Assembly: GCA_021800535.1 (NCBI GenBank) | Contig: JAJYYV010000011.1 | Coordinates: 1 to 52,544 of the forward strand | Reading direction: 5' to 3' | DNA length: 52,544 nucleotides | Source of the DNA: a bacterium | GTDB taxonomy: Bacteria > Ratteibacteria > UBA8468 > B48-G9 > DTJG01 | In this document: positions 3,330-49,835 of the stretch, piece by piece | How positions within the stretch are numbered: position 1 is the first letter of the stretch | Layout of the letters: each line of letters starts with the position of its first letter | Translations under genes and position numbers: made by a program | Notes under the pieces: model-generated | The model's database searches: none | The model's input: only the letters and a program-made list of their open reading frames with translations | Told to the model about the DNA's origin: nothing

Positions 3330-3402
3330 AAAAGATATGAAAGAAAAAGAAGAAATTTTAAAAGAAAAAACAAATAATAAAACAGAAAAGGAGGAAGAAA
3401 TC
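3318..3402 (+). promoter_or_regulatory. Conserved prepilin leader with two ribosome-binding sites (copy 1)
   Basis: The sequence before the prepilin contains AAAAGGAGGTG (ending at 3328) followed by an ATG at 3337, and then a second AAGGAGGA (3388-3395) followed by the chosen prepilin ATG at 3403. The same arrangement, with long stretches of near identity, occurs at 45031-45117 before another prepilin. In this copy the upstream ATG is in frame with the prepilin and would add 22 very charged residues. In the other copy the upstream ATG is followed by AAA TAA. Conservation of the second site is the reason 3403 is taken as the start. Confidence 0.6.
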
Positions 3403-4227: not shown

Positions 4228-4326
4228 TATATTATGATAAATATTAAGACTTAGTATAAACTGAAATCTATCCCGTAGAATGGGAAGATTAAAAAACTGG
4301 TTTTGATAATTGTCAAAAGGAAAAAG

Positions 4327-7845: not shown

Positions 7846-7853
7846 AGGGAAAT

Positions 7854-10800: not shown

Positions 10801-11195
10801 GACAGATTTTTCATGTGAAGAACTTTTGTTATGACTGGATAAAAATAATACCAGTAATCATGAAGTGGGCAAATTTTAATGAAAATGAAAGACTGTTTGA
10901 TTCTAATAATGAATTTACAATGATGCATGTTCTTAAAAAAGGAAATACTTATTATCTTGTGACAACTTATAGAGTTGATGACCCAATGACTGGAGTTGTG
11001 GGTCCTTTGCAATCTAAAAATATCAAATTAAAATTTCTTAAAAAACTGCCTAAGGGAAAATATAAGGTGACCAAAATATGGAATCATGAAAATTTTATAG
11101 GGATATTTACACATACTCAACTGGCTTCAGGGTTTAACGCAGAAGTATATGAAAACCATCAAATGAAAATATTCAAAATAGAACCTATAAAATAA
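7854..11195 (+). CDS. Giant secreted GH42-like glycoside hydrolase, paralogue of the preceding gene
   Basis: A 1113-residue exported protein beginning with a signal peptide, MKKILQVFIITVLTVSINCM. It shares architecture with its neighbour: beta-rich N-terminal half, TIM-barrel beginning around FPITEFEPLPGVYNWSSLTP, an acidic active-site candidate LGGYYFEDEHIDTRW (E616, D617, E618), the following LKRKYKNISKLNTVYNTNY segment that aligns with KAKGYTLNKVNRLFHKDY of the first protein, and a late FLQKGGKVVLQNNA block like the GH42 middle domain. Tandem duplication and divergence is the simplest reading. It starts 8 bases after the upstream stop with AGAGGGA as ribosome-binding site, so the two are co-translated. 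Substrate unknown; family membership is inferred from fold-level motifs rather than from strong identity. Confidence 0.68.
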   Translation: MKKILQVFIITVLTVSINCMAFSFSQYQILHRLSIPDNWKPAKYISLNHIAEKNILKISFTGVRVNTNLNFYLKKPLPLDTKVKSIDLWAYHPATEINQDTGFSLNAIFLDKTGKKIISGFQWDNTFIASHIGPPNVRESDIWKYLWCKPPKNAVKFIGFNINIFYIENVPVLTEKKSLFIKDIAFDRINYSKTKLYYVVLGPQATSSTSYALTEQSGGSNIPYVLLNDLIDPIKGTDPNQIKFCERPSIINLCVSVYNASDTCVYSSIYKNIRINNSPENCAPDFFKKILIPITAPGTYWITGRSYNAINDTYFTTDRVRLVIIKGNGPKPAKTENKDLLTINPEKPWDVLTRHDKKQIHFHIRISELPKEKGPFTIHYTLIPYSVWFPGFNETNRPVILNKTITVNKSGNITVPYKPKMDVEIVAAELWDGNKVIDREDRPIGIKNSINTNPKFTEKNKIPSLKNLTKNTIWINTTCWPYTRFSSELYKELAENIDQLKKLTPNIGISFPITEFEPLPGVYNWSSLTPIFNLAAKYGCRIIPYMAEKYPFKWEPVEFWQRSDGCVSRSTILWGYGVGRELFFNGKYNPGNVKQFNQQFARRYLNNPGLGGYYFEDEHIDTRWIPPWPASYDSANHTRFCNYLKRKYKNISKLNTVYNTNYKNFSEVKIPISGNPMFPKKIMFVDWMSYQVWQVNKFIYTDQVKVVRDIDPKRPIIFYLIAYPYYKFLKYLATHDCMIANGGVNSSSMSIFNNDKYYDVKGLFYRMEPISMWYYNSRSSVSNYPQAGFDSMIFGQITVGGRGLNFHIFMSPSHFIYKDALKPDHGTGIDKIVQYLPIFKELRDARKLTDPVVLMNLYNSCDYFDGPFQWNTWPMFFALYNRLHYEPYVVWPGFPLNYMKKAKIVFVAGAIIDNQELEDIKNFLQKGGKVVLQNNAAKYSLENPDGNYTYYLFNALGINYKNPSGEHLKGVDIPYAIYNYGKGQIFHVKNFCYDWIKIIPVIMKWANFNENERLFDSNNEFTMMHVLKKGNTYYLVTTYRVDDPMTGVVGPLQSKNIKLKFLKKLPKGKYKVTKIWNHENFIGIFTHTQLASGFNAEVYENHQMKIFKIEPIK

Positions 11196-18698: not shown

Positions 18699-18774
18699 AA
18701 AGACTGGAAGTCAGCTTGGTCGTCAAGTCCCAGTCAAGAACTGAACCAAGTGAAAGCTTCCAGTCTTTGTTTTT
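18699..18774 (+). ncRNA. Structured leader RNA with terminator-like stem and competing pairing
   Basis: The leader folds into nested helices: a perfect 12-bp outer stem AAAGACTGGAAG (18699-18710) with CTTCCAGTCTTT (18757-18768), an inner CTTGGT/ACCAAG stem (18715-18720 with 18745-18750) and a small CAGT/ACTG hairpin (18731-18734 with 18740-18743). A U-rich run (TTTGTTTTT, 18766-18774) follows, as in an intrinsic terminator. GACTGG at 18702-18707 can alternatively pair with an internal CCAGTC at 18730-18735, giving a mutually exclusive conformer. This is the layout of an attenuator or riboswitch. It does not match c-di-GMP-I, c-di-GMP-II, SAM, TPP, purine or fluoride riboswitch cores that I know. 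Confidence 0.6.
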
Positions 18775-18867: not shown

Positions 18868-19467
18868 ATGCAATGTAAAAAAATAATAATTCTTTTTTTC
18901 GTTTCAATTTATATCTCTGGAATATCTTTTGCTTCAGAAACAAGCAATGCTAATAGTCAGGTGGAACAATTAATTAATTCTCCACAGGGTCAGGCATTAT
19001 ATAATCTTGAAATACAAATAAGCCAGCAGAAAAAACAGAATGAATTGCTTAAACTTAAAGAAGAAGCAATTAAACTACAAAAGGAAATTCGGAATGCTTC
19101 TGCTCCAAGTCAACCCACATTACCTACTACTGCTCCTTCTTATCAATTCCCTACAAAAGGGTATTTTGCTCCTTCACCAGGATTTCAGGAACCTTTTACT
19201 TCTATCTTAAAAAAGAAAAAAACTTTTCAGGTAATGATGGTGGAAAAAGATATTAATGCTCTTGTTAAACAAAATGGGTCTTTTTATTTTGTTAAGATAG
19301 GAGATAGATTAAATAGGGCAAGAGTAATAAGAATATCCGGATATGGTATTACACTGGATAAAAACGGAACAAGGACTTTTTATCCTTTATCTATTATTAT
19401 CCCGGATAATAACAAACAATTACCAATTTTACAAAATGGTGCAAATAGGTCAAATACTATTAAATAA
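18868..19467 (+). CDS. PilP/GspC-like periplasmic pilus-assembly protein
   Basis: A 199-residue exported protein with signal peptide MQCKKIIILFFVSIYISGIS, a coiled-coil-like helix (residues ~48-75, SQQKKQNELLKLKEEAIKL), a Pro/Ser/Thr-rich linker (~78-110) and a C-terminal small beta domain, NGSFYFVKIGDRLNRARVIR then ISGYGITLDKNGTRTFYPLS. That last block matches the homology-region fold of PilP/GspC, especially R64-type PilP proteins, whose conserved core is V-x-x-G-D followed by I-x-x-x-G-V-x-L. These proteins connect the inner-membrane platform to the secretin. A strong AAAAGGAG precedes the ATG. It is the first gene after the structured leader, and its end overlaps the ATPase start by 32 bases. 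No secretin gene is in the window. Confidence 0.65.
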   Translation: MQCKKIIILFFVSIYISGISFASETSNANSQVEQLINSPQGQALYNLEIQISQQKKQNELLKLKEEAIKLQKEIRNASAPSQPTLPTTAPSYQFPTKGYFAPSPGFQEPFTSILKKKKTFQVMMVEKDINALVKQNGSFYFVKIGDRLNRARVIRISGYGITLDKNGTRTFYPLSIIIPDNNKQLPILQNGANRSNTIK

Positions 19468-21064
19468 AAAAAAGATTTCACAATCTCAATTATCACATGC
19501 TTTAAATATTCAAAAACGCACAGGAGAATTAATAGGACAAATTCTCTCCAAATATCATTTTATTTCAGAAGAAGACCTAGTAGAAGCACTTTCACAACAA
19601 ATAAATATTCCTATCTGGGATAAACCTGTATCAAAAATAGACCACTCTATTATTGAAAAAATAGGCTTGCCACAGGCACAAAATAGAGGGATACTTCCTG
19701 TATTAAATGGTGGGAATACTCCAATAATATTACTTCAAGACCCGACAAATAGTTTAACAATAAGTTTTCTCGTTCAGCATGGCTTGGTTTATCCAAGATA
19801 TATTGTTTCTCCTTCTCTTATTAAAAAACATCTTGAAGAACTTGTCCCTATTTCAGCAAGGATTTCACATCTTAATTCTATTATTCAGGAAATAGAGCAT
19901 TCAGGATTATCCGGTAATAAAATGAAAGAATTTTTAAATACTATCCTTGAAGAAGCAGTAATAACAAATGCTTCTGATATACACATAGAACCAAATGCTT
20001 TGACCTCTGATATAAGATTTAGAATAGATGGCATACTAACTCCTATTGTTTCTTTGCCATATCATTCTCATGAGAATTTATTAAATGTTATTTATTCGCT
20101 ATCTTCAATTACACAATCAGAATTTTCAAGATTTCACGACGCAAACTTTTCTTTCCCGTATTATAACAGAACAATAGATATTCGTGTTTCTTCTATTCCT
20201 ACAACAAAATACAGAGCAACGATTGTTTTAAGATTGCTTGATAGATACAAAACAATTATGCCTCTGAAATACCTCGGATATAGAAAACACCAGATAGATA
20301 CAATTCAAAATTTAACATCAAAACCACAGGGGCTTTTTCTTTTTACAGGACCAACTGGAAGCGGAAAAACAACATCGCTATACTCAATTCTTTCTATGCT
20401 TCGCACAGAAGAAGTAAAAGTGATTACAATAGAAGACCCAGTAGAAGTGGAACTGCCATTAACTCAACAGGTAGAAGTCAATGAACAGGCAGAAATAACT
20501 TTTTCTTCTGCTTTACGGGCATTTTTAAGACACGACCCTGATATAATACTTGTAGGAGAAATAAGAGATAGAGAAACTGCTATGGAAGCAATAAGGGCTT
20601 CTCTTACAGGACATCTTACTTTCTCAACACTACACACACAGGATACTTTTACAAGTATTACAAGGCTTATGGACATTGGAGTTTCTTTATCATATCTTGG
20701 AACTTCACTGGAAGCAGTTATCAGCCAAAGATTAATAAGAAAACTATGCGGATTTTGTAAAAAAGAAATTGGTGTGCCACAATCTTATGAAAATAAAATA
20801 AAAACAAAAACTATATATAAGCCTGTTGGTTGTAGTTATTGTAATAATGGATATAAAGGAAGAACCGTAGTAGTGGAAATACTTGAAATAAAAGGAGAAT
20901 TAAAAGAAGTAATGAAAGAAGGGAATTATAAAAAAGTAAAAGAAAAAATATCTGAAATTCAAAACAATGGATTTGTTTCTTTACTGCAAGACGGATATTC
21001 TTTGATAGAACAAGGGATAACTTCTATTGAAGAAATAGAAAGGGTGGTGGGTCGTGAAGATTGA
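19436..21064 (+). CDS. GspE/PilB/PilQ(R64)-type assembly ATPase
   Basis: A 542-residue hexameric secretion/pilus ATPase. The start at 19436 gives MVQIGQILLNKKKISQSQLS, the normal MshEN/T2SSE N-domain opening; the longer frame from 19343 is rejected. The catalytic half contains Walker A GPTGSGKTT (305-313), the Asp box region VKVITIEDPVE, the Walker B region PDIILVGEIRDRETAMEA and a His box LTFSTLHTQDTFTSI. The tetracysteine zinc motif of GspE/PilB is intact (C438, C441, C466, C469). It powers extension of a pilus or pseudopilus. It overlaps the next gene, a GspF/PilC platform protein, by 11 bases. It is the only assembly ATPase visible in this operon, which otherwise carries F-type conjugation-apparatus genes without VirB4. 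Confidence 0.95.
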   Translation: MVQIGQILLNKKKISQSQLSHALNIQKRTGELIGQILSKYHFISEEDLVEALSQQINIPIWDKPVSKIDHSIIEKIGLPQAQNRGILPVLNGGNTPIILLQDPTNSLTISFLVQHGLVYPRYIVSPSLIKKHLEELVPISARISHLNSIIQEIEHSGLSGNKMKEFLNTILEEAVITNASDIHIEPNALTSDIRFRIDGILTPIVSLPYHSHENLLNVIYSLSSITQSEFSRFHDANFSFPYYNRTIDIRVSSIPTTKYRATIVLRLLDRYKTIMPLKYLGYRKHQIDTIQNLTSKPQGLFLFTGPTGSGKTTSLYSILSMLRTEEVKVITIEDPVEVELPLTQQVEVNEQAEITFSSALRAFLRHDPDIILVGEIRDRETAMEAIRASLTGHLTFSTLHTQDTFTSITRLMDIGVSLSYLGTSLEAVISQRLIRKLCGFCKKEIGVPQSYENKIKTKTIYKPVGCSYCNNGYKGRTVVVEILEIKGELKEVMKEGNYKKVKEKISEIQNNGFVSLLQDGYSLIEQGITSIEEIERVVGRED

Positions 21065-22223
21065 GGTATTAAATAGATTTGGTCAGACAAAAATGTTAGA
21101 TGTGGCAGATAAATCAGAGATTGAGGTTTTGAAAAAACAGGGATTTTTTATTCTTTCACAGAAAAAAACTTTTTCTTTGAAAAGAATAAATGCCTTAAAA
21201 CCTATGCAGTTGGCAGAATTGTTTAGAGACCTTGCTGGATTACTGGAAGTAGGAATTTCCCTAACAGATTCTATAAAGGAACTATCTGTTTCTACAAGCA
21301 AACAAATATCCGGGATACTTGATGAGATATATATAAAACTACAACAGGGATTTTTCTTTTATGAAGCATTAAGTCAGATTGGCGGATTTCCACAAGAGGT
21401 AATATCTTCTGTAAAAGCAGGTGAAAAAGGAGCAGTATTAAAAGATACTTTTGAAAGACTGGCAGAATTTTATTCCAAGAAAGCCAAATTTAATTCAAAA
21501 CTTAAAATGGCACTTATTTATCCAGGTTTTGTTATAGGTGCTATATTTGTTGTGTCAACCGCTGTTTCTATTTTTGTTATTCCTAAAATGATAGGATTTT
21601 TTTCAAAACTGCCTAATCTACCACCTTTAACAAAAATATTTTTACTTATGGCCGGTGTATTATCTCACTTTTGGTGGTTATTTCCTGGTGTTCTTATAGG
21701 ACTTGGATTTTTATTAAGATTTTTGGTATCAACAGAAACAGGGATTAAAATACTTGAAAAATTTTCAAATGTAAAAGTATATTTGCCTATTAAGGAAAGA
21801 GTATTTGCCAACTTTTTTTCTTCTCTTGCTATGCTTACAAAAAATGGTGTGCCTTTAATAGAAGCAATAGAAATGGTAGATGTTCAGAATAATGTATTTA
21901 AAAAAAGTTTTAAAAATGTTAAAGAAAAACTAACACAGGGATTTTCATTTTCAGAGGCATTAAGAGAAGAAAAGATTTTCCCTATATTTATAATTCAATC
22001 CATAGCCAAAGGAGAAAAAGGCGCAAACCTATACGAATACATAGACAGAATAGCCCTGTATTATATAGAAAAGACTGATAGAAATTATGAAATGTTTCTT
22101 ACAATAATAGAACCAATTTTAATTAGTCTTGTGGCGGTTTTTGTGGTTTTCTTCGTATTTGCGTTTCTAATGCCTATATACGCAAATTTAAGCAATGTTC
22201 AAATTTTTGGTGGAGGCTATTGA
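21054..22223 (+). CDS. GspF/PilC-type inner-membrane platform protein
   Basis: A 389-residue polytopic membrane protein with two T2SSF repeats, AELFRDLAGLLEVGISLTDS and FANFFSSLAMLTKNGVPLIEAIEMV. Hydrophobic segments are near residues 160-185, 195-225 and the C-terminus (IIEPILISLVAVFVVFFVFA). GspF/PilC forms the core on which the extension ATPase acts to add pilin subunits. It starts with GTG at 21054 inside the ATPase gene. The TTGACA of a possible internal promoter overlaps its stop codon. The pair corresponds to PilQ-PilR of the IncI1/R64 thin-pilus system, or PilB-PilC elsewhere. Confidence 0.94.
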   Translation: MKIEVLNRFGQTKMLDVADKSEIEVLKKQGFFILSQKKTFSLKRINALKPMQLAELFRDLAGLLEVGISLTDSIKELSVSTSKQISGILDEIYIKLQQGFFFYEALSQIGGFPQEVISSVKAGEKGAVLKDTFERLAEFYSKKAKFNSKLKMALIYPGFVIGAIFVVSTAVSIFVIPKMIGFFSKLPNLPPLTKIFLLMAGVLSHFWWLFPGVLIGLGFLLRFLVSTETGIKILEKFSNVKVYLPIKERVFANFFSSLAMLTKNGVPLIEAIEMVDVQNNVFKKSFKNVKEKLTQGFSFSEALREEKIFPIFIIQSIAKGEKGANLYEYIDRIALYYIEKTDRNYEMFLTIIEPILISLVAVFVVFFVFAFLMPIYANLSNVQIFGGGY

Positions 22224-22249
22224 CAAAACATATTAATCTATGAAATAAT
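22220..22249 (+). promoter_or_regulatory. Possible internal promoter before the FG-GAP gene
   Basis: A perfect TTGACA (22220-22225), overlapping the stop codon of the gspF-like gene, is followed after 18 bases by AATAAT (22244-22249), five of six matches to the -10 consensus. The 82-base gap here is the longest between genes in this operon, so the surface protein and prepilins may have extra transcription. Confidence 0.45.
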
Positions 22250-22305
22250 ATTATTGAAAAAAATAAATCAATTTATAAGTAATATTACTAAAAATATAAG
22301 GAATT

Positions 22306-23742
22306 ATGGAAAAAGTCCCAGTCAAAAAAGTAAGTATATTATTATGGTTGGTTGTTGCCAGCATTTTCTTTGCTGTTCAATTCGCTCACGCACAAAGCAT
22401 TTCTTTTGCACAAACAAATCCAGGTAATAATAATTTTCTTATTGATACCCAGGATTTCGCCAATGTAGAAACAAGTGCTTATCAGGACGCTTTATTTAGT
22501 CCATCAACATCAAATAATGGCTACCTTTATGTTGCATGGGGTGGACCTGTAAATATTAACTCATTCGGGCAGATTACTTCTGATTCTGATTTTACTGATA
22601 CTACTTTGGTATCAAATTTAAGCAATGATGGTGGGGCTCAATTTGCTGATATTTATAATAATGGCACAATAGATGTTGTAGTGCTTCAACAAAATAGTAG
22701 TGCTCCTGATTTTTATGTATTTCAATATCTTGGTAATAGAAAATTTGGTCAACAACAATTACTTTTTTCTGGAACATATCCGAGTAATTGGTATGGCTAT
22801 ACTTTACAAGCAGTCGTAGACCTTGAAGGAAATGGGTATCCTGATATTATTTGTAGAGGTCTATATTATGTAGGAACAACTTTGGAATATGAAACAATAA
22901 TATACTGGAATAATGATGGCACTTTTTCCGCAAGTGATTCCACTATAATTCCCAATGCTTATTATGAAGGTGCAGCAGATTGGACTGGTAATGGGCTAAA
23001 AGATTTAATTATGTTTTCAAGTCAATCTTCTTCTTCGGGAAATGGAAATCCTATTGAAATATATATGCAGACTTCCAAAGGTGTTTTTCCTTCTTCTCCC
23101 ACTTATACTTTTTCAGGTATTAACGGATATGGTTATGCGGGATTTACTGGGTATGGTGGCACTCCAACTGACGCTCCAATAGTTATTGGGAATTTTACTG
23201 GTAAATATCCGTCATTTTTAGCAGTTCAATTTAATCCTGTTAGTTCAGGCACAGCCGCAAATGAAATAGTTTTATTCTCTAATAACTGGATACAAAATGG
23301 AAGTGGGTTTACGCTTCTTCCTGTATGGACTGATAATAATACCCCACAAGAGGGAATATCACTGATGGGTTCGTCAGCAGATATAAATGGAGATGGTAAT
23401 CCTAATTTTGTGATTGATAGAGGCTATGAACCTTATAATTATTCAACTCTTGAAGTATGGTATACTGCCCCACTTGATAATGCCATTACTTTTGAAACAC
23501 AGATAATAACTTCTGGTGATAATAGTGCTCAATCTTATGGTTATGTAGGCAATCTGACAAATTCAGGGCTTGCTGATATAGAAAATGATGGATATGTATA
23601 TTATGCTTACAAAGATACACCAATTCCTACACCTGTTTTCCCTACTGGTGGAGGTGGTGGCGGTGGGGGTGGTGCAGTAGACCCTGTTTTAATAATTCCA
23701 ATATTGGCTTTGGTTTATGTTAAGAGAAAATATAGGAGGTAA
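22306..23742 (+). CDS. Surface FG-GAP/VCBS-repeat protein with GlyGly-CTERM-like tail
   Basis: A 478-residue exported protein. The signal peptide region ends VQFAHAQ. The body has degenerate FG-GAP/VCBS-type repeats of a beta-propeller, each with a D-x-x-x-x-G-x-x-D-like loop: FADIYNNGTIDVVVL, VVDLEGNGYPDIICRG, AADWTGNGLKDLIMF and SADINGDGNPNFVID. The C-terminus is striking: nine consecutive glycines, then AVDPVLIIPILALVYVKRKYRR, a glycine run plus hydrophobic segment plus basic tail. This is the tripartite shape of GlyGly-CTERM signals, which are handled by rhombosortase in bacteria with type II secretion. It is probably an adhesin or surface propeller displayed by the machinery encoded around it. 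It lies between gspF and the prepilins. Confidence 0.72.
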   Translation: MEKVPVKKVSILLWLVVASIFFAVQFAHAQSISFAQTNPGNNNFLIDTQDFANVETSAYQDALFSPSTSNNGYLYVAWGGPVNINSFGQITSDSDFTDTTLVSNLSNDGGAQFADIYNNGTIDVVVLQQNSSAPDFYVFQYLGNRKFGQQQLLFSGTYPSNWYGYTLQAVVDLEGNGYPDIICRGLYYVGTTLEYETIIYWNNDGTFSASDSTIIPNAYYEGAADWTGNGLKDLIMFSSQSSSSGNGNPIEIYMQTSKGVFPSSPTYTFSGINGYGYAGFTGYGGTPTDAPIVIGNFTGKYPSFLAVQFNPVSSGTAANEIVLFSNNWIQNGSGFTLLPVWTDNNTPQEGISLMGSSADINGDGNPNFVIDRGYEPYNYSTLEVWYTAPLDNAITFETQIITSGDNSAQSYGYVGNLTNSGLADIENDGYVYYAYKDTPIPTPVFPTGGGGGGGGGAVDPVLIIPILALVYVKRKYRR

Positions 23743-23747
23743 ATATT

Positions 23748-24989
23748 ATGAATAAGAAAGGTTTTACTCTACTTGAAACTATGCTTGTAGTTGGTATTTT
23801 ATCTTTTATGGCCGCAACACTAATCCCTGCGACTATAAAAATGATAAATCTTAATCAGGCAAAAAGTGTAGCAAAAGAAATCACTGGAATACAGGAAGCA
23901 GAAAGAAGTTATTATGTTAATCAGATGAACCTAAATAATGGTGCAGGCTCATGGGCAGATACTATACAGCAATTACAACAGGGCGGTTATATTCCTTCCA
24001 CCTGGGGCGGAAATAGTATCTTTGGAAATCCTTATACAATTACTGATAATGGAAGCACTATGACCGTAGCAACAACTCTACCTTTGGGATTACAGGGAGT
24101 AATCCAGTCAGATAATATTGATGTAACCACTTCTGATACCACTTTATCTAATATAGAAGTAGATTCAACAATTCCTGTGCCTGCCGCAGAACCAGCATTA
24201 TCAGGACTTGTCCATAGATATGGAAGCGGTGAAAGTAGAACAGCAACACAATCTATCGGAACAACAGGAAGTTTAGTTATTGGTGTTTCACCTTCACAGG
24301 ATAATGTAGATAAAACAATAGCGGAAAATCCAGACCCAATTGATAACACAAATGATGGAACTAATGCAGAAACTATACCTGATATTTATGACCCTGCTCT
24401 TAAAATAGCAGGTATTAGTAAATCAGGCTGGCTATCACAGGCAAGTTTCCCGACAAATTTAAATACAAGAGAAATAAGAATTTTCGGAATGACTGAAATT
24501 TATCTTCCTGCTGATTTTCAAATTTCTTCTTTATACGCGGTAGTAACAGTTGCAGACGCTTTGAATGGTTATTACGGAACATATACCACAGGTTATACAG
24601 AAGAGCCCAGTAATATGCAAGGAATGAATCTGTATAGTATATCTAAACCTTATTGGACTTATTGGACAGGGGGTGGCCCTTGGGACCCTACTATTTATTG
24701 CACAGGAACACTTGAAGGTCAGTCTGTTTCTTTCACCGCAAGCATTAACGGTTGGGAAACAAATCCTTGTGCGACAATAACATTTAATTCGCCGGCAAGT
24801 GTTGTAAGTGCTACAACATATTTTGCAGAATATAATGGTGATTCTTTTGAACCGGGTGTAGTAATGGACGCTGTGGTAGGACAATCAATTATGAATAACG
24901 GAAACGAAGTAATAGTTGATAATCCTATTGTAGGATATGGGACAGAAGTAACTTATCCATTTGATACAACAATAGTATTTAATATATAA
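23748..24989 (+). CDS. Large prepilin (possible tip/adhesin minor pilin)
   Basis: A 413-residue prepilin. MNKKGFTLLETMLVVGILSF gives a type III signal: basic leader of four residues, Gly at -1, Phe at +1, Glu at +5. An alpha1 helix follows (QAKSVAKEITGIQEAERSYY), and then SIFGNPYTITDNGS, a pilin-core strand pattern. The remaining 270 residues are Thr/Asn/Gly-rich and beta-predicted. That size, far larger than a major pilin, resembles PilV-type tip pilins of thin pili. AGGAGG lies 7 bases before the ATG. No site-specific recombinase or repeated crossover sites (shufflon) are visible beside it. It is part of a block of three prepilins. Confidence 0.82.
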   Translation: MNKKGFTLLETMLVVGILSFMAATLIPATIKMINLNQAKSVAKEITGIQEAERSYYVNQMNLNNGAGSWADTIQQLQQGGYIPSTWGGNSIFGNPYTITDNGSTMTVATTLPLGLQGVIQSDNIDVTTSDTTLSNIEVDSTIPVPAAEPALSGLVHRYGSGESRTATQSIGTTGSLVIGVSPSQDNVDKTIAENPDPIDNTNDGTNAETIPDIYDPALKIAGISKSGWLSQASFPTNLNTREIRIFGMTEIYLPADFQISSLYAVVTVADALNGYYGTYTTGYTEEPSNMQGMNLYSISKPYWTYWTGGGPWDPTIYCTGTLEGQSVSFTASINGWETNPCATITFNSPASVVSATTYFAEYNGDSFEPGVVMDAVVGQSIMNNGNEVIVDNPIVGYGTEVTYPFDTTIVFNI

Positions 24990-25010
24990 CAAAAAAATAG
25001 GAGGAATTTT

Positions 25011-25481
25011 ATGGAAAGAATAAAAGAAAGAATAAGAAAAATTGTAAATGTAGTAAAAAAAGAAACAAAGAGGGGTTTTACCCTCGTAGAATTAATTGCT
25101 GTAATAGGAATTGCCGGTATTTTATTGGCAATAATATTACTCGGTGCAGCAGGAGCAAGAAAGGCGTCAGAAATATCAGCCACTTCCAGAGAAGTTCAGA
25201 CAATATATTCTGCTTGTCAGGCATGGCTTGGTGATGGTAGAACCAATTATGCAAATATCAGTTTAACCGATTTACAAACAGCAGGACTATTACCAGCAAA
25301 TACTATAAATAATTCCTGGGGTGGAACATATTCGGTTGCACCCGGGGCAGATGATTCACAGGTTACTATTTCTACAACAGATGTTCCAGACCAGAATACT
25401 TATACTGAAATTCAAAGTTCTTTAGGAGCAATTTTAGTCAGCAGTAATTTCGGAGGTGGCACTGCCTCATTTACTTTTTAG
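25011..25481 (+). CDS. Type IV prepilin, R64 PilS-like major pilin candidate
   Basis: A 156-residue prepilin with a 22-residue basic leader ending KRG, cleavage before FTLVELIAVIGIAGILLAII, and Glu at +5. The globular part has ISLTDLQTAGLLPANTINNS and WGGTYSVAPGADDSQ, matching the N-x-W-G-G-x-Y pattern of type IVb (PilS/TcpA-like) pilins. The long leader is also type IVb-like. It is the best major-pilin candidate in this operon by size. A strong AGGAGG precedes the ATG. It is separated by two bases from the next prepilin. Confidence 0.85.
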   Translation: MERIKERIRKIVNVVKKETKRGFTLVELIAVIGIAGILLAIILLGAAGARKASEISATSREVQTIYSACQAWLGDGRTNYANISLTDLQTAGLLPANTINNSWGGTYSVAPGADDSQVTISTTDVPDQNTYTEIQSSLGAILVSSNFGGGTASFTF

Positions 25482-25483
25482 AG

Positions 25484-25930
25484 ATGAAAAAAGGTTGGAC
25501 TTTTATAGAGATGATAGCAGTAATTGGAATTGTCGGAGCAATAGCTTCTGTTTTACTGCCATTACATACAAGGAGAATAAGACTTGGAAGGACACAAATG
25601 ATTACTCAACAGATAGAACAAATATATTGGTGTGCTGTCCAAGAAAATAAAAGTTCTATGACTGACCCTACTATACAAAATTTAGTTTCCAGTGGTCTGA
25701 TTAAGTTGGTTAATAATATGTTTGGTTATCCTTATACGCTTTCTTATGATAACTATATAATCACAATTACAACCGATGTGCCGCAAAATGAAGTATCTCC
25801 TGATTTCCCGCCAGAGATAACAAAAACTCCTGATGGGAATTTATGGGAGATAAGTTATTCTAATAATCTTCCTTATGGGAATAGCCAGACTGAAATGTAT
25901 AACTGGTTTTTTGTAGGACAGAGGAGTTAA
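25484..25930 (+). CDS. Type IV minor prepilin with Trp at +1
   Basis: A 148-residue prepilin-like protein. MKKGWTFIEMIAVIGIVGAI has a short basic leader and Gly at -1, but Trp instead of Phe at +1; Glu at +5 is kept. The alpha1 helix continues into TRRIRLGRTQMITQQIEQIYW, and a core motif NMFGYPYTLSYDNYIITITT parallels the pilin-core strands of its two neighbours. Minor pilins often depart at +1. It starts two bases after the preceding stop, so it is translated by re-initiation. It probably primes or caps the filament, but this is inferred from position and size. Confidence 0.78.
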   Translation: MKKGWTFIEMIAVIGIVGAIASVLLPLHTRRIRLGRTQMITQQIEQIYWCAVQENKSSMTDPTIQNLVSSGLIKLVNNMFGYPYTLSYDNYIITITTDVPQNEVSPDFPPEITKTPDGNLWEISYSNNLPYGNSQTEMYNWFFVGQRS

Positions 25931-25936
25931 ATAAAA

Positions 25937-26704
25937 ATGAAGAGAGTATTACTTTTTATTTTGATTGTGAGTGCTTTTTGTTATGCGGGCAATCAGTTTT
26001 TTAGTAGTCCTGTGAATTTTTTTGGAAGCACACAGTCAGAAACAAAACTTATGCATAGCAAGGCAATGAAGAAAAAACCTGTGGTATCTATTTGGGCACA
26101 ACCTATTGTTATGCCAAATGGGACAATACAGGTTTATGTTCCTCCGCCACAGGTGGTAAATTTTCTTAATAATCCTACTCCACAAAACGCACAAGCATAC
26201 TTTAACTGGGAAAAAGAAAGAATTGCCAAGATAGCAAAGGCTTCGGCTATGCTTCAACAAATAGCAGAAAAAAACAATACATCAAATATAATGCCTGTTA
26301 ATTCACAAACTACAATACCACAATCTCAACAACAAATTCAACCTCAACAGGCTACACAAAATAATAATACTTATAAAAGTCCGTTTTCTACTCCTACAAT
26401 TTTATATTTTGCCAAACAGGGCTGTAAATTCTGTATGGCTGAAGAATTTGTTATGCACTTATTTTATAAAGAATATCATAATTATGTCCATATTATAGGT
26501 CTATGGGTAGGCAGTAAAAATTCTATACCAAAACAACATTTTCCTTTTCAGGTATCTAATGGTCTTGAAAAGAAATTCAAAATAGGGCTGTATCCCGCAA
26601 TGATATTTTATTTACCTAATAAACCTGAACCTGTAAAACTTGAAGGTTTCGTTACAGGTAATCAACTTATTCAATTCTATCAAAAAATAGGAGGCAAACT
26701 ATGA
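25937..26704 (+). CDS. TraF/TrbB-like periplasmic thioredoxin-fold protein
   Basis: A 255-residue exported protein. The signal peptide MKRVLLFILIVSAFCYAG is followed by a proline- and glutamine-rich stretch. The C-terminal thioredoxin-like domain begins TPTILYFAKQGCKFCMAEEF, with an intact C-x-x-C (CKFC) redox pair, and contains the cis-proline region IGLYPAMIFYLPN. TraF and TrbB of F-type conjugation systems are such proteins; TrbB keeps the active C-x-x-C and acts as a disulfide isomerase for Tra proteins. It overlaps the TraH-like gene by 4 bases (ATGA), the same TrbB-TraH adjacency as on the F plasmid. A general thiol oxidoreductase is the alternative. Confidence 0.74.
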   Translation: MKRVLLFILIVSAFCYAGNQFFSSPVNFFGSTQSETKLMHSKAMKKKPVVSIWAQPIVMPNGTIQVYVPPPQVVNFLNNPTPQNAQAYFNWEKERIAKIAKASAMLQQIAEKNNTSNIMPVNSQTTIPQSQQQIQPQQATQNNNTYKSPFSTPTILYFAKQGCKFCMAEEFVMHLFYKEYHNYVHIIGLWVGSKNSIPKQHFPFQVSNGLEKKFKIGLYPAMIFYLPNKPEPVKLEGFVTGNQLIQFYQKIGGKL

Positions 26705-27918
26705 AAAAAATAATAATGATTTTGTCTATTTTTATGATTACTTCTTTTGCTTTTGCTGATATATGGCAGGAAAATGGTATTGTTCCACAATCAGACCTTA
26801 ATTCTGATAATAGCGGTTATACTTATCAGGGTGGTGTAAATTTCAATCCACCATATTATCAAACACCTTCTATTGGATATTCTTATAATATAGGCCTTGG
26901 CTGTAGTGGATTGAATTTGAATGCTGATTTTAGTAATCTTTTAAGTGCACAGGCACTAACAAACTATGCAGAATCAATAGGAGAAAATGCTCTTGCCGCT
27001 TCTCCTATGGTTTTACTTGAAATGGTAAGTCCTACACTTGCAGATACACTTAAAAATCTTGAAAATAGGGCACAAAGTATTCAACTTCTCCAGTATAAAA
27101 GCTGTGAAGACTTACAAAAAGAAGGAATAAACTGGGTAAAACAATTAAGGGCACAAAGCGAATATAACCAATTACAACAATCAGGTAATCTTGGAAGTAT
27201 CAATCAGATAGCACAGAATACTAATCTACAATTAACAGGATATAGTGGGGCACAAACAGACCAATTACAGGTATTTAAAGATGGCTATCAGTGGACAGGT
27301 GCTAAAAAAAGCACAATCAATCTCTCTAATGAATTGATAGGCGATGTAGAAGTAAATAGCAATGGTTCTTTTAATTACATCGGACCAAGATCAACTCCTA
27401 ATGAAATTTACGATAATGAAATGACAAGTTATTACAATAATATACAAAATGTGGTAGATGAATATCTTGCTTCAAATGAAGTTCCTGACCTATCAGAAAT
27501 TTCTTTACCTACTTTTCCTGTAACCCCTAAACTGATAAGAAGTATAGCAACACTACCACAACCAGATAGAGACCTTGCAGTAAGCAAACTTGCTTCTGGT
27601 CTTGCCTTGATAAAAATGACAAATGACATCAATGATATAAACACTAACCTTGAAAAAATGTCAGGAGACCCTACACTTACATCAGGAGAAAAAAATATTA
27701 TACTGGGAAAACAAACCTATCTAAATAATGTTATATCAGGACTAACACAGGAAAATAAAATACAAGACCAGGTAGCAATACAAATAGCCAATGGAATCAT
27801 ACAAAAAGAAAATCAGGAAAAGGCAGAAAGTCTTGAAGAAATAAATAATCAATTAGAAAACAATCAAGAACAAAAAACTTTTTATAATCCTTTTGAATTT
27901 GGAGGAATACAACAATAA
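26701..27918 (+). CDS. TraH-like T4SS mating-pair protein
   Basis: A 405-residue exported protein with signal peptide MKKIIMILSIFMITSFAFAD. TraH-like features include a Cys-containing turn GYSYNIGLGCSGLNLNADFS, a helical segment ALAASPMVLLEMVSPTLADT, a second Cys in LQYKSCEDLQKEGINW, and a coiled-coil-rich C-terminus with Glu/Gln. F-plasmid TraH (about 458 residues) is a periplasmic/outer-membrane protein needed for pilus extension and mating-pair stabilisation. The neighbours TrbB/TraF before it and TraG-like after it match the F order. The match is by pattern and context, so confidence is moderate. Confidence 0.7.
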   Translation: MKKIIMILSIFMITSFAFADIWQENGIVPQSDLNSDNSGYTYQGGVNFNPPYYQTPSIGYSYNIGLGCSGLNLNADFSNLLSAQALTNYAESIGENALAASPMVLLEMVSPTLADTLKNLENRAQSIQLLQYKSCEDLQKEGINWVKQLRAQSEYNQLQQSGNLGSINQIAQNTNLQLTGYSGAQTDQLQVFKDGYQWTGAKKSTINLSNELIGDVEVNSNGSFNYIGPRSTPNEIYDNEMTSYYNNIQNVVDEYLASNEVPDLSEISLPTFPVTPKLIRSIATLPQPDRDLAVSKLASGLALIKMTNDINDINTNLEKMSGDPTLTSGEKNIILGKQTYLNNVISGLTQENKIQDQVAIQIANGIIQKENQEKAESLEEINNQLENNQEQKTFYNPFEFGGIQQ

Positions 27919-27925
27919 GAAAATT

Positions 27926-28408
27926 ATGAAAAATAATATTATAAAAGAAATTGTTATTATTTTATTTTTGTTTATGATATTTCTTTTTTATAAGGATTAT
28001 TCATTAAACCGGCAAAAAGTCGATATAAAAAATCAAATATTAATGTTAAAACAACAATCAAAAAATTATGATATATCTTATCCATTTCATACTCTTGCTT
28101 CTTATACGCCAAACATAGAAAAAATGATAAGGTATTTATATATCAAAACATCTCTGGAAGGAATAAAATTTTCTATTCAACAGCAAAATAAAAAACAACC
28201 ACAAATCCAACAACAAAATAATCAAAAAATTATAAAAAAACAATACATTATTTCTTTTTTCGGGCCAATTGAACAAACAAACCCTATTATAAAAACATTA
28301 TTTTTTGCATTTCCTGTTGTATTAAAAAAATTAAATGCCAATAAAAATAATATAACCATTACAATAGATTTTTACGGAAAAAATGATAACAGGAATAACC
28401 CCTCTTGA
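27926..28408 (+). CDS. PilO/GspM-like single-TM inner-membrane protein
   Basis: A 160-residue protein. The start at 27926 gives MKNNIIKEIVIILFLFMIFL, one membrane segment; a TTG 33 bases upstream is less likely. After the TM come a short helical stretch, a Gln/Asn-rich linker (QQQNKKQPQIQQQNN), and a small alpha/beta domain (KKQYIISFFGPIEQTNPIIK and NNITITIDFYG). TM, coiled linker and ferredoxin-like domain is the layout of PilO/GspM, which dock beneath the secretin with PilN/PilP. I do not recognise it at sequence level. It overlaps the TraG-like gene by 26 bases. A pilus-platform protein set between TraH and TraG would strengthen the hybrid-machine reading. Confidence 0.5.
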   Translation: MKNNIIKEIVIILFLFMIFLFYKDYSLNRQKVDIKNQILMLKQQSKNYDISYPFHTLASYTPNIEKMIRYLYIKTSLEGIKFSIQQQNKKQPQIQQQNNQKIIKKQYIISFFGPIEQTNPIIKTLFFAFPVVLKKLNANKNNITITIDFYGKNDNRNNPS

Positions 28409-29744
28409 TAGTGCGTATTCTTACGCGGGATATGTGGTCGCAGGTCAGTTAATGAAAAAACTTTTACCTGTATATATTGGTGTTGTGGCATCTGCCACCA
28501 TATGGATAATTTATAAAGGACTCTTGGAACAATCTTTAAAACCTGTCATTATATATCTTATTACAGTAGGAATTCTTTCTGCATTTTTTATTCCAACTCA
28601 AACAGTATCATGTTCCTCTGCAGCAGGACAGGCAGGAGCGCCTCTTATAGTACACTCAGAAACAATAGCCTCTTCTTTAGGATATAACCAATCACAACCA
28701 ATTCCATCAGGCCTCGGATTAATAGGTATGGCAATCAATAATATTACCACATGGACAGTACAAGGAATTGAAGATGCTGGTAATCTTGCAAAATCAGATA
28801 AATATATTGGAGGAAGTCCATTTTCCGCTATCTATACAGATGATATGATTCTTACAGCACATATAACCAGCCTTAAAACAAAAATAGCCTTTATAAATTT
28901 TTTAAAAGGCCCTTTTACCCGAGCAATAACCCAGTGGAAAAATTCAGGAGCTCCACCTCCAATACATTCTCCTCTTTGGTATCCTGGAACATGGGATAAA
29001 AAATATGGACCTAAAAAATTAAAACAATGGGAATCAATAAAAAAAGAAATAATCAAGGAAGGGCAACAAAAATATGGGAAATTCAACTGGTGGGGAAAGT
29101 TTCTTTTAAAATATGTTAGTTGTTATGATGATACCAAAAATTTTGATAATGCCTATATAGGATGGGTTACAAACAATGAAATACGGGATGATAGTCAAGG
29201 AACCATAGGACAGCTTACAAAAAATCTTGGAACCGGAGAATCTTCAACAGTAATGACAAATATGTTAGGCAGAATAATCCGTTTTATTTCAAAATTAATT
29301 TTACAACTCTTGGCAGGAGCTATAATTCCAGCACTACCTGTTTTTCAGGGTGCAATATCTTTTATAGTTCTCTCGTTTTTTCCTATTGTTTTTTTAATTT
29401 CTTTATTTCCTTCATCTTTTAGCTGGATTTCATGGTATTTTCTTATATTTTTCTGGGTCCAATCATGGTCTATTGGTTGGGCAATTCTTAATGTTTTTCA
29501 AAATCTTCAATGGGCATTTTTTAAACAAATATTTATTAAAATATACCCCTCGTTTGTTTCTGGGGGAATGCCTTTTATTAACAATACAACTTTTATTACA
29601 ATTCCACTTGTTACTTTAATATTAATCTTTATAATGCCGGCAATTGAATGGGAATTATTATCCAAAGGAAGAGCTGCAATAATGTCTAATTTTACAAACA
29701 TATCAGCAGGTGGAAAAATAATTGACCCGGCAATAAGAATTTAA
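28383..29744 (+). CDS. TraG N-domain-like polytopic T4SS membrane protein
   Basis: A 453-residue membrane protein. It has N-terminal hydrophobic segments at about residues 28-48 and 52-72, a long soluble loop (residues ~75-300) containing two Trp-rich stretches, and four or more C-terminal segments (LILQLLAGAIIPALPVFQGA, then FFPIVFLISLFPSSF and FITIPLVTLILIFIMPAIEW). This arrangement resembles the N-terminal membrane domain of F-type TraG, a VirB6-like channel and mating-pair component; the large periplasmic C-domain of F TraG is absent. The preceding TraH-like gene supports the assignment. A TrbL/VirB6-like protein is the alternative. Confidence 0.66.
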   Translation: MITGITPLDSAYSYAGYVVAGQLMKKLLPVYIGVVASATIWIIYKGLLEQSLKPVIIYLITVGILSAFFIPTQTVSCSSAAGQAGAPLIVHSETIASSLGYNQSQPIPSGLGLIGMAINNITTWTVQGIEDAGNLAKSDKYIGGSPFSAIYTDDMILTAHITSLKTKIAFINFLKGPFTRAITQWKNSGAPPPIHSPLWYPGTWDKKYGPKKLKQWESIKKEIIKEGQQKYGKFNWWGKFLLKYVSCYDDTKNFDNAYIGWVTNNEIRDDSQGTIGQLTKNLGTGESSTVMTNMLGRIIRFISKLILQLLAGAIIPALPVFQGAISFIVLSFFPIVFLISLFPSSFSWISWYFLIFFWVQSWSIGWAILNVFQNLQWAFFKQIFIKIYPSFVSGGMPFINNTTFITIPLVTLILIFIMPAIEWELLSKGRAAIMSNFTNISAGGKIIDPAIRI

Positions 29745-29758
29745 TTTAGAGAAATATT

Positions 29759-30343
29759 ATGAATAATACATTATTTAAAATAAAAATTTTATCAATTTCT
29801 TTATTTTTTATAACACTATGTTTTGCAGGAAAATATCCACCACAAAACATTGGCGGATACCCTTTACGACTTCACAGCCGTAACTTTCTGCGAAGACGGG
29901 TAAAAATTGGACTTGCATCCTGGTATGGAAGCGGAAATCCTGATGAAGGATTAAATTTCTTTACAGCAAATGGTAATATTTTCAATCCCTATAGTTTAAC
30001 CTGTGCAACAAGACATTATCCATTTGGAACAAAACTAAAAGTTATAAATCTTGATAATGGAAAAAGTGTAATTGTAGTAGTTGATGACAGAGGACCTGCT
30101 GACTGGCTTTCAGATAGAAAAATAGACCTGACCAAAGAAGCCTTTTCCAAAATAGCGAATCCAAGAAAAGGGCTTATTCCTGTAATAATAGAACCTGTAA
30201 AAAACAAGTCTGCACAACAAAAAACATATCAAATTCTAAAACAATGTAAAGAAATCGTAAAAGAAGAAATTACAAAAGCATTAGATAAATCCTTATCATA
30301 TAAAAATTTTATAAACCATAACATAGGAGGAAAAAATGAATAA
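29759..30343 (+). CDS. RlpA-like double-psi beta-barrel cell-wall protein
   Basis: A 194-residue exported protein with a signal peptide (SISLFFITLCFAG). The RlpA/DPBB domain is clear: KIGLASWYGSGNPDEGLNFF, TANGNIFNPYSLTCATRHYP, FGTKLKVINLDNGKSVIVVV and DDRGPADWLSDRKIDLTKEA. RlpA proteins bind, and in some species cleave, denuded peptidoglycan glycan strands. Conjugation machines normally carry a VirB1/Orf169-type lysozyme-fold transglycosylase to open the wall; here an RlpA-type protein sits in the operon, between TraG and TraA-like genes, and probably fills that role. It overlaps the next gene by 8 bases. There is no SPOR domain. Confidence 0.88.
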   Translation: MNNTLFKIKILSISLFFITLCFAGKYPPQNIGGYPLRLHSRNFLRRRVKIGLASWYGSGNPDEGLNFFTANGNIFNPYSLTCATRHYPFGTKLKVINLDNGKSVIVVVDDRGPADWLSDRKIDLTKEAFSKIANPRKGLIPVIIEPVKNKSAQQKTYQILKQCKEIVKEEITKALDKSLSYKNFINHNIGGKNE

Positions 30344-30737
30344 ATTTGAAGAAAAGCAGATAAAAATATTAACAGGATTTACTGCATGGATTATGAATCC
30401 TGAAAATCAGCATACATTAAGAAATATTTTTGCGGCTATATGTATCACTGTAGCAATAATACTGACATTTCAATTTTTAACAACTATAGCATATGCCCAG
30501 ACAAATGTAAATGGAGCAGTCACAAATTTTACAGACACAATCCGGGCGATTCTTGTAGGTCCGGTAGCTAAAACCCTCTGTGTAGCTTCTTTTATTTCAG
30601 CAGCATTTTTTATGCTCTCAGGTAAATGGAAAGCAGCCATTTCCTGCATAATAGCAGGTATACTTCTTGGTTTTGCAAACAATATAGCGCAGGCAGTATT
30701 TAATACAACTTCCAATACCACTTCTTCTAACTGGTAA
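30336..30737 (+). CDS. TraA/VirB2-like T4SS pilin
   Basis: A 133-residue propilin. A long leader of about 54 residues ends AYAQ (candidate cleavage after Ala54), comparable to the unusually long 51-residue TraA leader of F. The mature ~79 residues hold two hydrophobic helices (VAKTLCVASFISAAFFMLSG and AAISCIIAGILLGFANNIAQ) joined by the short basic turn KWK, the TrbC/VirB2 hairpin. Such pilins form the conjugative pilus. AGGAGG precedes the ATG. It is directly followed by TraL-, TraE- and TraK-like genes, the same order as traA-L-E-K on F, which is the strongest argument for the call. Confidence 0.8.
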   Translation: MNKFEEKQIKILTGFTAWIMNPENQHTLRNIFAAICITVAIILTFQFLTTIAYAQTNVNGAVTNFTDTIRAILVGPVAKTLCVASFISAAFFMLSGKWKAAISCIIAGILLGFANNIAQAVFNTTSNTTSSNW

Positions 30738-30743
30738 AATTTT

Positions 30744-31064
30744 ATGAAACAATGTTTTCGTTCTTTAAATAAACCTATTACATTGTTAGGACTTGATATT
30801 GAAGAATTAGCAATAATCCTTATGTTTACAGGAATTTTAGTGGTTATATTTAATATTATTATTGCTTTATCAGGAAGCATTTTAGCAGGATTAATACTTA
30901 AAAAAACAAAAAAAGGAAGATATCCTGGTTTTTTCAAACATTGGCTATACTATCATACAGGGATAAAATTTAAAGGCTTATTACCTTCTCCTAAAAAACA
31001 AAAGGCATATACTATATGGAAAAAAGACGAAAATTATGGGAAATCTGGGCGGGTTCAGAATTAA
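30744..31064 (+). CDS. TraL/VirB3-like T4SS membrane protein
   Basis: A 106-residue protein, close to F TraL (about 90). It starts with a conserved-type KPITLLGLDIEELAIILMF block containing a short amphipathic segment and a TM hairpin (residues ~22-55, IILMFTGILVVIFNIIIALS). A basic cytosolic tail contains YPGFFKHWLYYHTGIKFKG. TraL/VirB3 is a small inner-membrane protein that associates with the pilin and the VirB4 ATPase. It follows the pilin after 6 bases and overlaps the TraE-like gene by 49 bases. No VirB4 is present downstream. Confidence 0.75.
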   Translation: MKQCFRSLNKPITLLGLDIEELAIILMFTGILVVIFNIIIALSGSILAGLILKKTKKGRYPGFFKHWLYYHTGIKFKGLLPSPKKQKAYTIWKKDENYGKSGRVQN

Positions 31065-31612
31065 GGGCAAAAAACCTTCAGTTTCTTTCTGTTTTTCTTG
31101 GAATTCTATTGTCCATAGAAACGGTTTCTTTTGTGTTTTATCTGATAAAACCAAAACCCATCTACTATATAAATGCCTCTAATGGTTTAGCATATCCTGT
31201 TAGAGCCAATAATAATCTGGTGGAAGATTTCGCAAAAAGTTTTGTTTTAAATCTTGCAAATTATACACCTTCAACAATATCCCAGACATATACAGAAATA
31301 TCTGATATGGTTTCTCCCGCATGTATGGCAAATATCAAAGGATATTTATTAAAAGAAAAAGAAACAATAACAGATAATGATGTAACCTCTACATTTGCCA
31401 TAACAAAAATAAAAATTAAAAAAAAAGATAAAAACTGGAAAGTAAAAGTTGAAGGTCAACATTCTATATATCAAGCAGGCCAGCAAATAAAAAATGGTGT
31501 GTATCAGTATACTTTGGAAATTATAAAAACCACTCCCACAGTAAGTCATCCCTTAGGATTGATGATAAATAACATTTATGGAAAATTTATATCCACAGGA
31601 AATAATCAATAA
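31016..31612 (+). CDS. TraE/VirB8-family T4SS inner-membrane protein
   Basis: A 198-residue protein (F TraE about 188) with one N-terminal TM (residues ~20-42, NLQFLSVFLGILLSIETVSF) and a periplasmic NTF2-like domain: LVEDFAKSFVLNLANYTPST, a YTEISDMVSPACMANIKGYL helix, then KKKDKNWKVKVEGQHSIYQA and a final YQYTLEIIKT strand. This is the TraE family, the VirB8 equivalent that scaffolds the inner-membrane complex. The long overlap with traL suggests the start may be slightly internal, but no better Met leaves the TM intact. Its stop overlaps the TraK-like start (TAATG). Confidence 0.82.
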   Translation: MEKRRKLWEIWAGSELRAKNLQFLSVFLGILLSIETVSFVFYLIKPKPIYYINASNGLAYPVRANNNLVEDFAKSFVLNLANYTPSTISQTYTEISDMVSPACMANIKGYLLKEKETITDNDVTSTFAITKIKIKKKDKNWKVKVEGQHSIYQAGQQIKNGVYQYTLEIIKTTPTVSHPLGLMINNIYGKFISTGNNQ

Positions 31613-32373
31613 TGTTTAAATATAAAATAATTATATTTTTGGTTTTACTTGAATGTTTAGAATCTTTTTCTTCAAATACCAATGCCAATTTACAAAATTT
31701 ATTACCACCAATAATACAACAACAGGTTTCACAGCAGCAACAGATTTCTTTAAATCCTGAAAAAATAATAAATTTCACTAATGGACAACCCATTAGTATC
31801 TTTACAAATCCACAAGACACAACTCAAGTGGATTTTCCTACAAATATTAAAAGAATTGTCAGTAATGCTGAAAATGATATTAGTTTAGAAGTAGTAAAAA
31901 ACAGACTTTTTATTCACTGTCTGGATTCTTATCAGGGAATAATTTTTGTAATTGCAGGAGGAATTTCTTATCCACTTTCAATTATACAATCCGACAATGT
32001 AGATGTCCAAGTCCAAATAGATGGGGCAGGGCAACAATATCAGAATATACAAGGAACTTTTATAACAACAAATTCTTTAATTACAAAATACCTCAAAAAA
32101 TTATTTCTTCAGGAATGTCCTGACATAATAAAAGTAAATAAGCAAGTTTTTCAGGGAAATGGAATATCTATTGTTATCACAAAACAACTGACATGGCAGG
32201 GACATTTTACCGGCTATATTGTCCAAATAATAAATATCACCAAAGATTTGGTTATTATTCCAATTCAGCAGATTTCTTTACCCGGACTTGTAGCAATATC
32301 TGTAAATAATGAAGTGTTAAAACCACAAGAAAAAACAAAAGGATACCTTCTTCTGAATTATCCTTCACCCTGA
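31612..32373 (+). CDS. TraK/VirB9-like T4SS outer-core protein
   Basis: A 253-residue exported protein (F TraK about 242). The signal-like start is followed by a Gln-rich stretch (PPIIQQQVSQQQQISLNP) and a beta-rich body: NAENDISLEVVKNRLFIHC, GIIFVIAGGISYPLSIIQS, then FTGYIVQIINITKDLVIIPI and LPGLVAISVNNEVLKPQE. TraK is the secretin-related VirB9 equivalent of F-type systems and forms the outer-membrane core with TraB and TraV. It is the last gene of the operon: its 3' end overlaps glyQ tail-to-tail by 16 bases. TraB and TraV do not follow, unlike on F. Confidence 0.75.
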   Translation: MFKYKIIIFLVLLECLESFSSNTNANLQNLLPPIIQQQVSQQQQISLNPEKIINFTNGQPISIFTNPQDTTQVDFPTNIKRIVSNAENDISLEVVKNRLFIHCLDSYQGIIFVIAGGISYPLSIIQSDNVDVQVQIDGAGQQYQNIQGTFITTNSLITKYLKKLFLQECPDIIKVNKQVFQGNGISIVITKQLTWQGHFTGYIVQIINITKDLVIIPIQQISLPGLVAISVNNEVLKPQEKTKGYLLLNYPSP

Positions 32374-45906: not shown

Positions 45907-45944
45907 TTTGTAAATATTTATTATAATTAAAAGGGATATATATA

Positions 45945-49814: not shown

Positions 49815-49835
49815 TTATATTACATAGGGGGAATA

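Follow-up and report, generated by a model that had tools for sequence, protein, structure and literature searches.

Pilus and transfer genes in the window

The window, that is the whole stretch of 52,544 bp analysed here, is the complete contig C71 of a metagenome-assembled genome (G000; 2.0 Mb, 91% complete, 86 contigs). Between positions 18868 and 32373 it carries 16 plus-strand genes, of which the first group encodes components of a type IV pilus and the second components of an F-type type IV secretion system (T4SS). All the frames are intact with no internal stops, and the spacing between successive genes lies between -49 and +21 bp, the sole exception being the 82 bp that separate gspF from the gene for an FG-GAP repeat protein. 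At the junction of the two groups, which is internal to the contig, the gene for the third prepilin (pre3) and traF are 6 bp apart on the same strand. The initial annotation, made from the sequence alone, had described tightly packed genes uniting the two modules, and the open reading frames, their spacing and the profile matches bear this out. From the spacing the run is likely to be co-transcribed; in a promoter scan predicted sites were no commoner than in shuffled sequence. On both sides the run is bounded by minus-strand chromosomal genes. These flanks, with S20 (identified by inspection), glyQ and a 2-oxoacid:ferredoxin oxidoreductase, are ordinary chromosomal genes and look unlike the surroundings of an integrated element.

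The features are listed in Table 1, where the E-values, as elsewhere for window proteins unless stated, are from Pfam and NCBIfam profile searches. The assembly ATPase, the GspF platform protein and the PilS-type prepilin are those of a pilus of the R64 or bundle-forming pilus (BFP) type. The profiles agree with the earlier naming of the ATPase, GspF and three prepilins, the third prepilin through the two modest matches in the table. The PilS-like protein is the probable major pilin. GspE has the Walker A motif GPTGSGKT, two C-x-x-C pairs, at 438 and 466, and an N-domain of the MshE type, a cyclic di-GMP-binding family (NF053729, 1.7e-15), and by its family matches it is the pilus motor. The suggestion that GspE, as a relative of VirB11, might serve the T4SS was rejected because the PilB/GspE models fit it far better than those of VirB11 (TIGR02538, 3.7e-120, as against TIGR02788, 2.3e-15); the MshE-type N-domain and the lack of any such ATPase near sister T4SS operons also speak against a VirB11 substitute. 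For the PilP-like protein a match to TIGR03021 was found as expected from the annotation, with a score under the model cut-off, and the protein aligns with the C-terminal domain of the PilP-like proteins of pQBR plasmids (E = 0.026).

Two further proteins of the pilus group are candidate adhesins. The large prepilin, pre1, matches the long prepilin of pQBR57 (BLASTP, 7e-17), a member of the pQBR/IncP-2 megaplasmid pilus family, and would have a PilV-like role; among 72,556 plasmids its matches were in Pseudomonas and Stutzerimonas records only. The FG-GAP protein, which the annotation had left unnamed, has hydrophobic stretches at 4-29 and 452-470 and ends in a glycine run, a hydrophobic stretch and a basic tail, features of a possible surface adhesin.

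In the T4SS group the genes named earlier as a C-x-x-C thioredoxin and as TraH-, RlpA-, TraA-, TraL- and TraE-like match the profiles of TraF, TraH, DPBB, VirB2/TrbC, TraL and TraE. The TraG-like assignment is tentative and concerns the N-terminal part, matched under the cut-off; the extended C-terminal region that F TraG has is missing. The TraK-like protein has no Pfam or NCBIfam match, and is tentatively recognised from its position and from phmmer matches in two relatives, each to the product of the gene that separates traE from traB (4e-10 in G267 and 2e-10 in G129). Between traH and traG lies the gene of a small membrane protein, u171, also previously unnamed, whose reading frame can be extended 5' to a TTG at 27893. 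Its predicted order of elements, transmembrane (TM)-alpha-beta-beta-alpha-beta, comes from a model with a pLDDT of 53, and no significant sequence or fold match was found for it.

Table 1. Features of the 16-gene run and its upstream region in the window
Feature	Position	Strand	Evidence
Strong hairpin	18699-18767	.	Divergent intergenic region 5' of pilP; 13-bp stem, -30.5 kcal/mol, z=-5.8
PilP-like pilus alignment protein	18868..19467	+	TIGR03021 4.7e-4, under model cut-off
PilB/GspE assembly ATPase, R64 PilQ position	19436..21064	+	PF00437 1.6e-106; TIGR02538 3.7e-120
GspF/PilC (PilR) inner-membrane platform protein	21054..22223	+	T2SSF PF00482 1.3e-45
Secreted FG-GAP repeat protein	22306..23742	+	PF13517 7.7e-11
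Large prepilin pre1	23748..24989	+	N_methyl 7e-5
PilS-like prepilin	25011..25481	+	PF08805 4e-7 (22-bit cut-off passed); N_methyl 8e-6
Minor prepilin pre3	25484..25930	+	TIGR02532 0.008; TIGR01710 0.0012
TraF-like thioredoxin-fold protein, CKFC	25937..26704	+	PF13728 4.2e-10
TraH-like	26701..27918	+	PF06122 6e-8; TIGR03755 2.8e-11
Small membrane protein u171	27926..28408	+	N-terminal TM, coiled coil, small alpha-beta domain
TraG N-terminal (VirB6-like) membrane protein	28383..29744	+	PF07916 2.4e-7, under model cut-off
RlpA/DPBB lytic transglycosylase-like	29759..30343	+	PF03330 2.2e-19; TIGR00413 2.8e-22
VirB2/TrbC-type pilin, TraA position	30336..30737	+	PF04956 1.4e-8
TraL (VirB3-like)	30744..31064	+	PF07178 9.4e-10
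TraE (VirB8-like)	31016..31612	+	PF05309 2.6e-15
TraK-like, VirB9 position	31612..32373	+	Position; phmmer to relatives

A second mixed operon beside dnaA

The window contains neither a secretin nor a PilM/PilO-type protein for the pilus, and neither TraB, TraV nor TraC for the T4SS. A TraC search of G000 led to a second mixed operon, on contig C61 (115315-122963), in which the frames overlap in the order TraB-TraV-TraC-u140-secretin-PilO/BfpC-like-ComF and which adjoins dnaN and dnaA (both identified by inspection). The window thus holds PilP, the ATPase, GspF and the pilins together with T4SS genes F-H-G-A-L-E-K, and C61 the secretin and PilO-like protein together with B-V-C, so that the gene sets of the two loci are complementary for the pilus and for the T4SS alike. 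The existence of this second operon makes the observation stronger than first stated, and the initial interpretation is supported in part. There is no prepilin peptidase in either operon.

On C61 TraB (PF03743, 1e-19), TraV (PF09676, 1e-7) and TraC, a VirB4-type ATPase (TIGR02746, 5.5e-119), are followed by u140, a protein of 140 residues whose C-terminal domain resembles, by eye, that of TraV. Over the two loci the Pfam scores of TraL, TraE, TraB, TraV, TraF and TraH are above the cut-offs, as in F-type (MPF_F) systems. The pilus secretin (PF00263, 9e-36) scores better with TIGR02519 (MshL; 4.5e-59) than with TIGR02520 (8e-39), both under the cut-offs, and its nearest solved relative is BfpB (1.1e-21), consistent with a secretin of the PilN/BfpB type. 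The bitopic protein of 338 residues in the PilO position matched no family, PF06864 included. A low-confidence model of it matched an actin-like fold (1e-6) and GspL-cyto (0.0085), as expected for the PilO2/BfpC group, in which an actin-like fold is known (PMC3984277). Profile comparison of this protein and of u171 with their positional counterparts on the megaplasmids gave no significant score, so that homology to those counterparts is one of position and topology only.

When the two loci are joined the order becomes traA-L-E-K-B-V-C-u140-pilN-pilO-pilP-Q-R-prepilins-traF-H-G. Taking the gene orders of F and R64 from general knowledge, this is the order of F with the pilus genes occupying the slot of its W-U-trbC-N. 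It would seem that the two loci were formerly one unit that later split at K/B and O/P.

The genus has one other genome, G001, an independently assembled metagenome-assembled genome of a second species, 62% complete and deposited as 'Candidatus Omnitrophota bacterium'. G001 has the C61 operon at the same dnaN-dnaA site with nearly identical gene overlaps, including the 4-bp overlap of u140 and the secretin, and no stops are present in the genes of either species. The dN/dS values of TraB, TraV, TraC, u140 and the secretin are 0.09-0.14 and those of DnaA and DnaN 0.11-0.12, all of them rough because synonymous sites are near saturation. The C61 half is under purifying selection, like housekeeping genes.

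Relatives and comparable systems

Neither TraE nor TraC was found in the other 33 of the 35 genomes of the phylum, so that, of the genomes compared, only those of this genus have the system. A TraC search of genome contigs recovered the hybrid operon in the sister species only, and viral contigs gave none. In a tree of TraC the closest T4SSs from other phyla are those of G129 and G267 (support 93/92), with the operon order A-L-E-K-B-V-C-u140-H-G; G129 also has a TraU-like gene 3' of traG. TraE searches of 386 genomes gave matches in 12, and the TraE-bearing loci examined contained no pilus ATPase. Orthologues of GspE in the 386 genomes were none of them above 40-42% identity, and the loci of the best (~4.7 kb) contained no tra genes. 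G000 itself encodes eight ATPases of the T2SSE family in its 2.0 Mb, and the number in most of the phylum's other genomes is 4-13. In the F-like T4SS of G322 (C79, locus L116, 12278-14008) the place between TraV and TraC is taken by a protein with similarity to the secretin N-domain and no beta barrel. At its N-terminus it seems fused to a 23S intervening-sequence protein, which may be an artefact of ORF calling. A distant T4SS locus of G184 (C7, locus L070, 3781-6759) has an FG-GAP repeat protein shortly 5' of a u140 homologue, just as the window operon includes one, and such proteins near T4SS loci are possibly a recurring adhesin.

Probes of the 72,556 plasmids with u140, pre1 and a pQBR pilus protein matched 136, 123 and 134 records respectively, nearly all of them Pseudomonas megaplasmids together with, at the genus level at which they were compared, the same few other genera. 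On pQBR57 the pilus cluster (63-73 kb, within 55000-78000) has the gene order of the window and C61 pilus genes, namely secretin-316-155-PilP-like-GspE-pilins-GspF, with a homologue of the large prepilin pre1, and the u140 domain directly follows TraC. In contrast to G000, its pilus and tra clusters (the latter at 170-192 kb, within 162107-202229) are separate, ~100 kb apart, and are borne on a transmissible plasmid. Closer linkage is seen on pGSUB1 of Geoalkalibacter (12000-61000), where a type IV pilus cluster lies between traE and mobH-traD-traK, and on a Candidatus Manganitrophus plasmid, where it is directly 5' of the F-type genes. Such plasmids differ from G000 in carrying TraU, TrbC, TraN and a coupling protein, with MobH on pGSUB1, in being plasmids, and in having pilus genes of other makeup. 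The pGSUB1 pilus cluster includes PilT and a prepilin peptidase, and the region that hosts it has F/SXT-like transfer genes. The annotation's statement that the two machines normally live apart needs to be qualified, since they are linked on the Geoalkalibacter and Manganitrophus plasmids and carried together on the pQBR/IncP-2 megaplasmids.

Of the better-known systems, F resembles the joined loci in the order of TraA-L-E-K, TraB-V-C and TraF-H-G. It differs in that here the genes are chromosomal and split, with pilus genes between traC/u140 and traF, with only the N-terminal part of TraG, with TraW, TrbC and TraN lacking from both operons, and with searches of G000 finding neither TraU nor a coupling protein. 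The thin pilus of R64/IncI1 (pilN-O-P-Q-R-S-V) and the BFP-type pili share the order secretin-PilO-like-PilP-ATPase-platform-prepilins, the BfpB/PilN-type secretin and the PilS domain. In R64 the pilus genes form an operon apart from the T4SS, which is of the IncI type, whereas here the pilus shares operons with an F-type T4SS and those operons have no prepilin peptidase. In PAPI-1 a type IVb pilus likewise serves an element with a conjugation system, but its ten genes form a separate cluster on a genomic island and the T4SS is of a different type (GI). That type IVb pili are paired with conjugation systems is already known from R64 and PAPI-1; the form that the pairing takes here is new.

Possible roles of the combined apparatus

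Absences from G000 are given here from family searches. No match to TraU (PF06834) was found in this 91% complete genome; of two coupling-protein families, PF10412 had no match and PF02534 weakly matched TraC itself only; relaxases were not searched for. With no TraU and no coupling protein by these two families, plasmid-type self-transfer is unlikely. We give about an even chance to the view that the system derives from conjugation, is chromosomal and vertically maintained, and links a type IVb pilus with a reduced F-type T4SS. The pilus, by means of its ATPase, platform, secretin, large PilV-like prepilin and perhaps also the FG-GAP protein, would find and hold a partner cell or surface, thereby assuming the contact or mating-pair role served in F by TraW-TraU-TrbC-TraN, and the T4SS core (TraC, L, E, the N-terminal part of G, B, V, K and the VirB2 pilin) would form the translocation channel. 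As no coupling protein is recognisable, plasmid transfer by the apparatus has probably ceased; its substrate may now be a different one, or coupling may depend on a non-canonical ATPase. Conjugation in PAPI-1 and TP114 relies for recognition of the partner on a type IVb pilus carrying a PilV adhesin (PMC5297154; PMC9045228), and the PilV-type minor pilin of PAPI-1 binds the lipopolysaccharide of the recipient (PMC5297154). By analogy, the best reading is a similar division of labour, in which the pilus makes contact and the F-type core translocates some substrate other than the element; we infer both the shared function and the nature of that substrate. It seems that the pilus belongs to the apparatus and is no accessory, because it is in the same two operons and selection has been kept after the apparent loss of the coupling protein.

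Several points weigh against this coupled apparatus. The sister T4SS operons of G129 and G267 have no pilus ATPase in the ~40 kb examined, so this type of T4SS can exist without pilus genes. The conservation in the second species covers the C61 half; the incomplete G001 assembly lacks the window half and the flanking glyQ alike. TraW, TrbC and TraN had no family match among the proteins of the two operons, which is where they are judged absent, the rest of G000 not having been searched for them. The PilP assignment is weak, as is that of u171, PilO/GspM-like by its predicted topology only, and a role of the pQBR pilus in conjugation is not established (PMC13391042).

In a more specific version, which we hold only tentatively, the system is a chimera in which the type IVb pilus replaced TraW-TraU-TrbC-TraN, its retraction would draw a partner to the T4SS channel, and the whole would be domesticated and not used for plasmid transfer. 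It is somewhat unlikely that there are instead two independent machines, a pilus for attachment and a T4SS for export, co-operonic through shared plasmid ancestry. The sister T4SS operons without pilus genes and the ~100 kb between the pQBR57 clusters fit such independence, as does the fact that each machine apparently has its own outer-membrane complex, a BfpB/PilN-like secretin on the one hand and TraK-TraV-TraB on the other. A single envelope-spanning device, as first proposed, is possible but unsupported by this analysis. Independence is less easily reconciled with the mixing of both machines at both G000 loci, with the u140/secretin overlap kept in two species, or with the linkage of the clusters on the Geoalkalibacter and Manganitrophus plasmids.

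The ComF-family gene that ends the C61 operon in both species, and a DprA-like gene (by inspection) ~6 kb upstream in G000, raise the question of a DNA-uptake machine in which the pilus captures DNA and the T4SS-like part imports it (compare the ComB system of Helicobacter). Such a competence role seems improbable: ComF-family genes are widespread, including in bacteria not known to be competent, no ComB-type arrangement is present, and an F-type T4SS with a VirB2 pilin and a VirB4-type ATPase indicates export. ComEC was not found in the 91% complete G000, which weakens the competence reading despite the ComF gene. Still less probable, and disfavoured, is a conjugative element left behind in the chromosome and now decaying; the split over two loci and the lack of a match to TraU or the two coupling-protein families would agree with decay, but the genes are all intact, those of C61 are under purifying selection like housekeeping genes, the site beside dnaA is the same in two species and the flanks look chromosomal. 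An assembly or binning artefact fusing two operons, conceivable for a metagenome-assembled genome in 86 contigs, is very improbable and likewise disfavoured given the contig-internal 6-bp junction on one strand and a second mixed operon with the same overlaps in an independent assembly.

Type IV pili and conjugative T4SSs cooperate in mating in R64, TP114 and PAPI-1, yet are encoded there as separate units, and the arrangement in G000 suggests that pilus and channel work together as a unit that makes contact with other cells and delivers to them. The pQBR/IncP-2 megaplasmids have a conserved type IV pilus without an assigned role (PMC7070040; PMC13391042). As both its pilus and tra components are shared with the G000 system, that pilus is predicted to serve transfer, an answer suggested by analogy.

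The hairpin upstream of pilP matched no Rfam family, and neither the window nor the compared loci contain a further paired copy of its 11-bp arm. Elsewhere in the window two alike cassettes (3337-11195 and 45118-52544) each encode a prepilin-like protein (DUF1559/N-methyl) and, after it, two very large secreted proteins, in one a GH42-like pair and in the other a Laminin_G_3 protein and an open-ended one. They resemble polysaccharide-use loci, and a gene for a LacI-type regulator lies 5' of the first.

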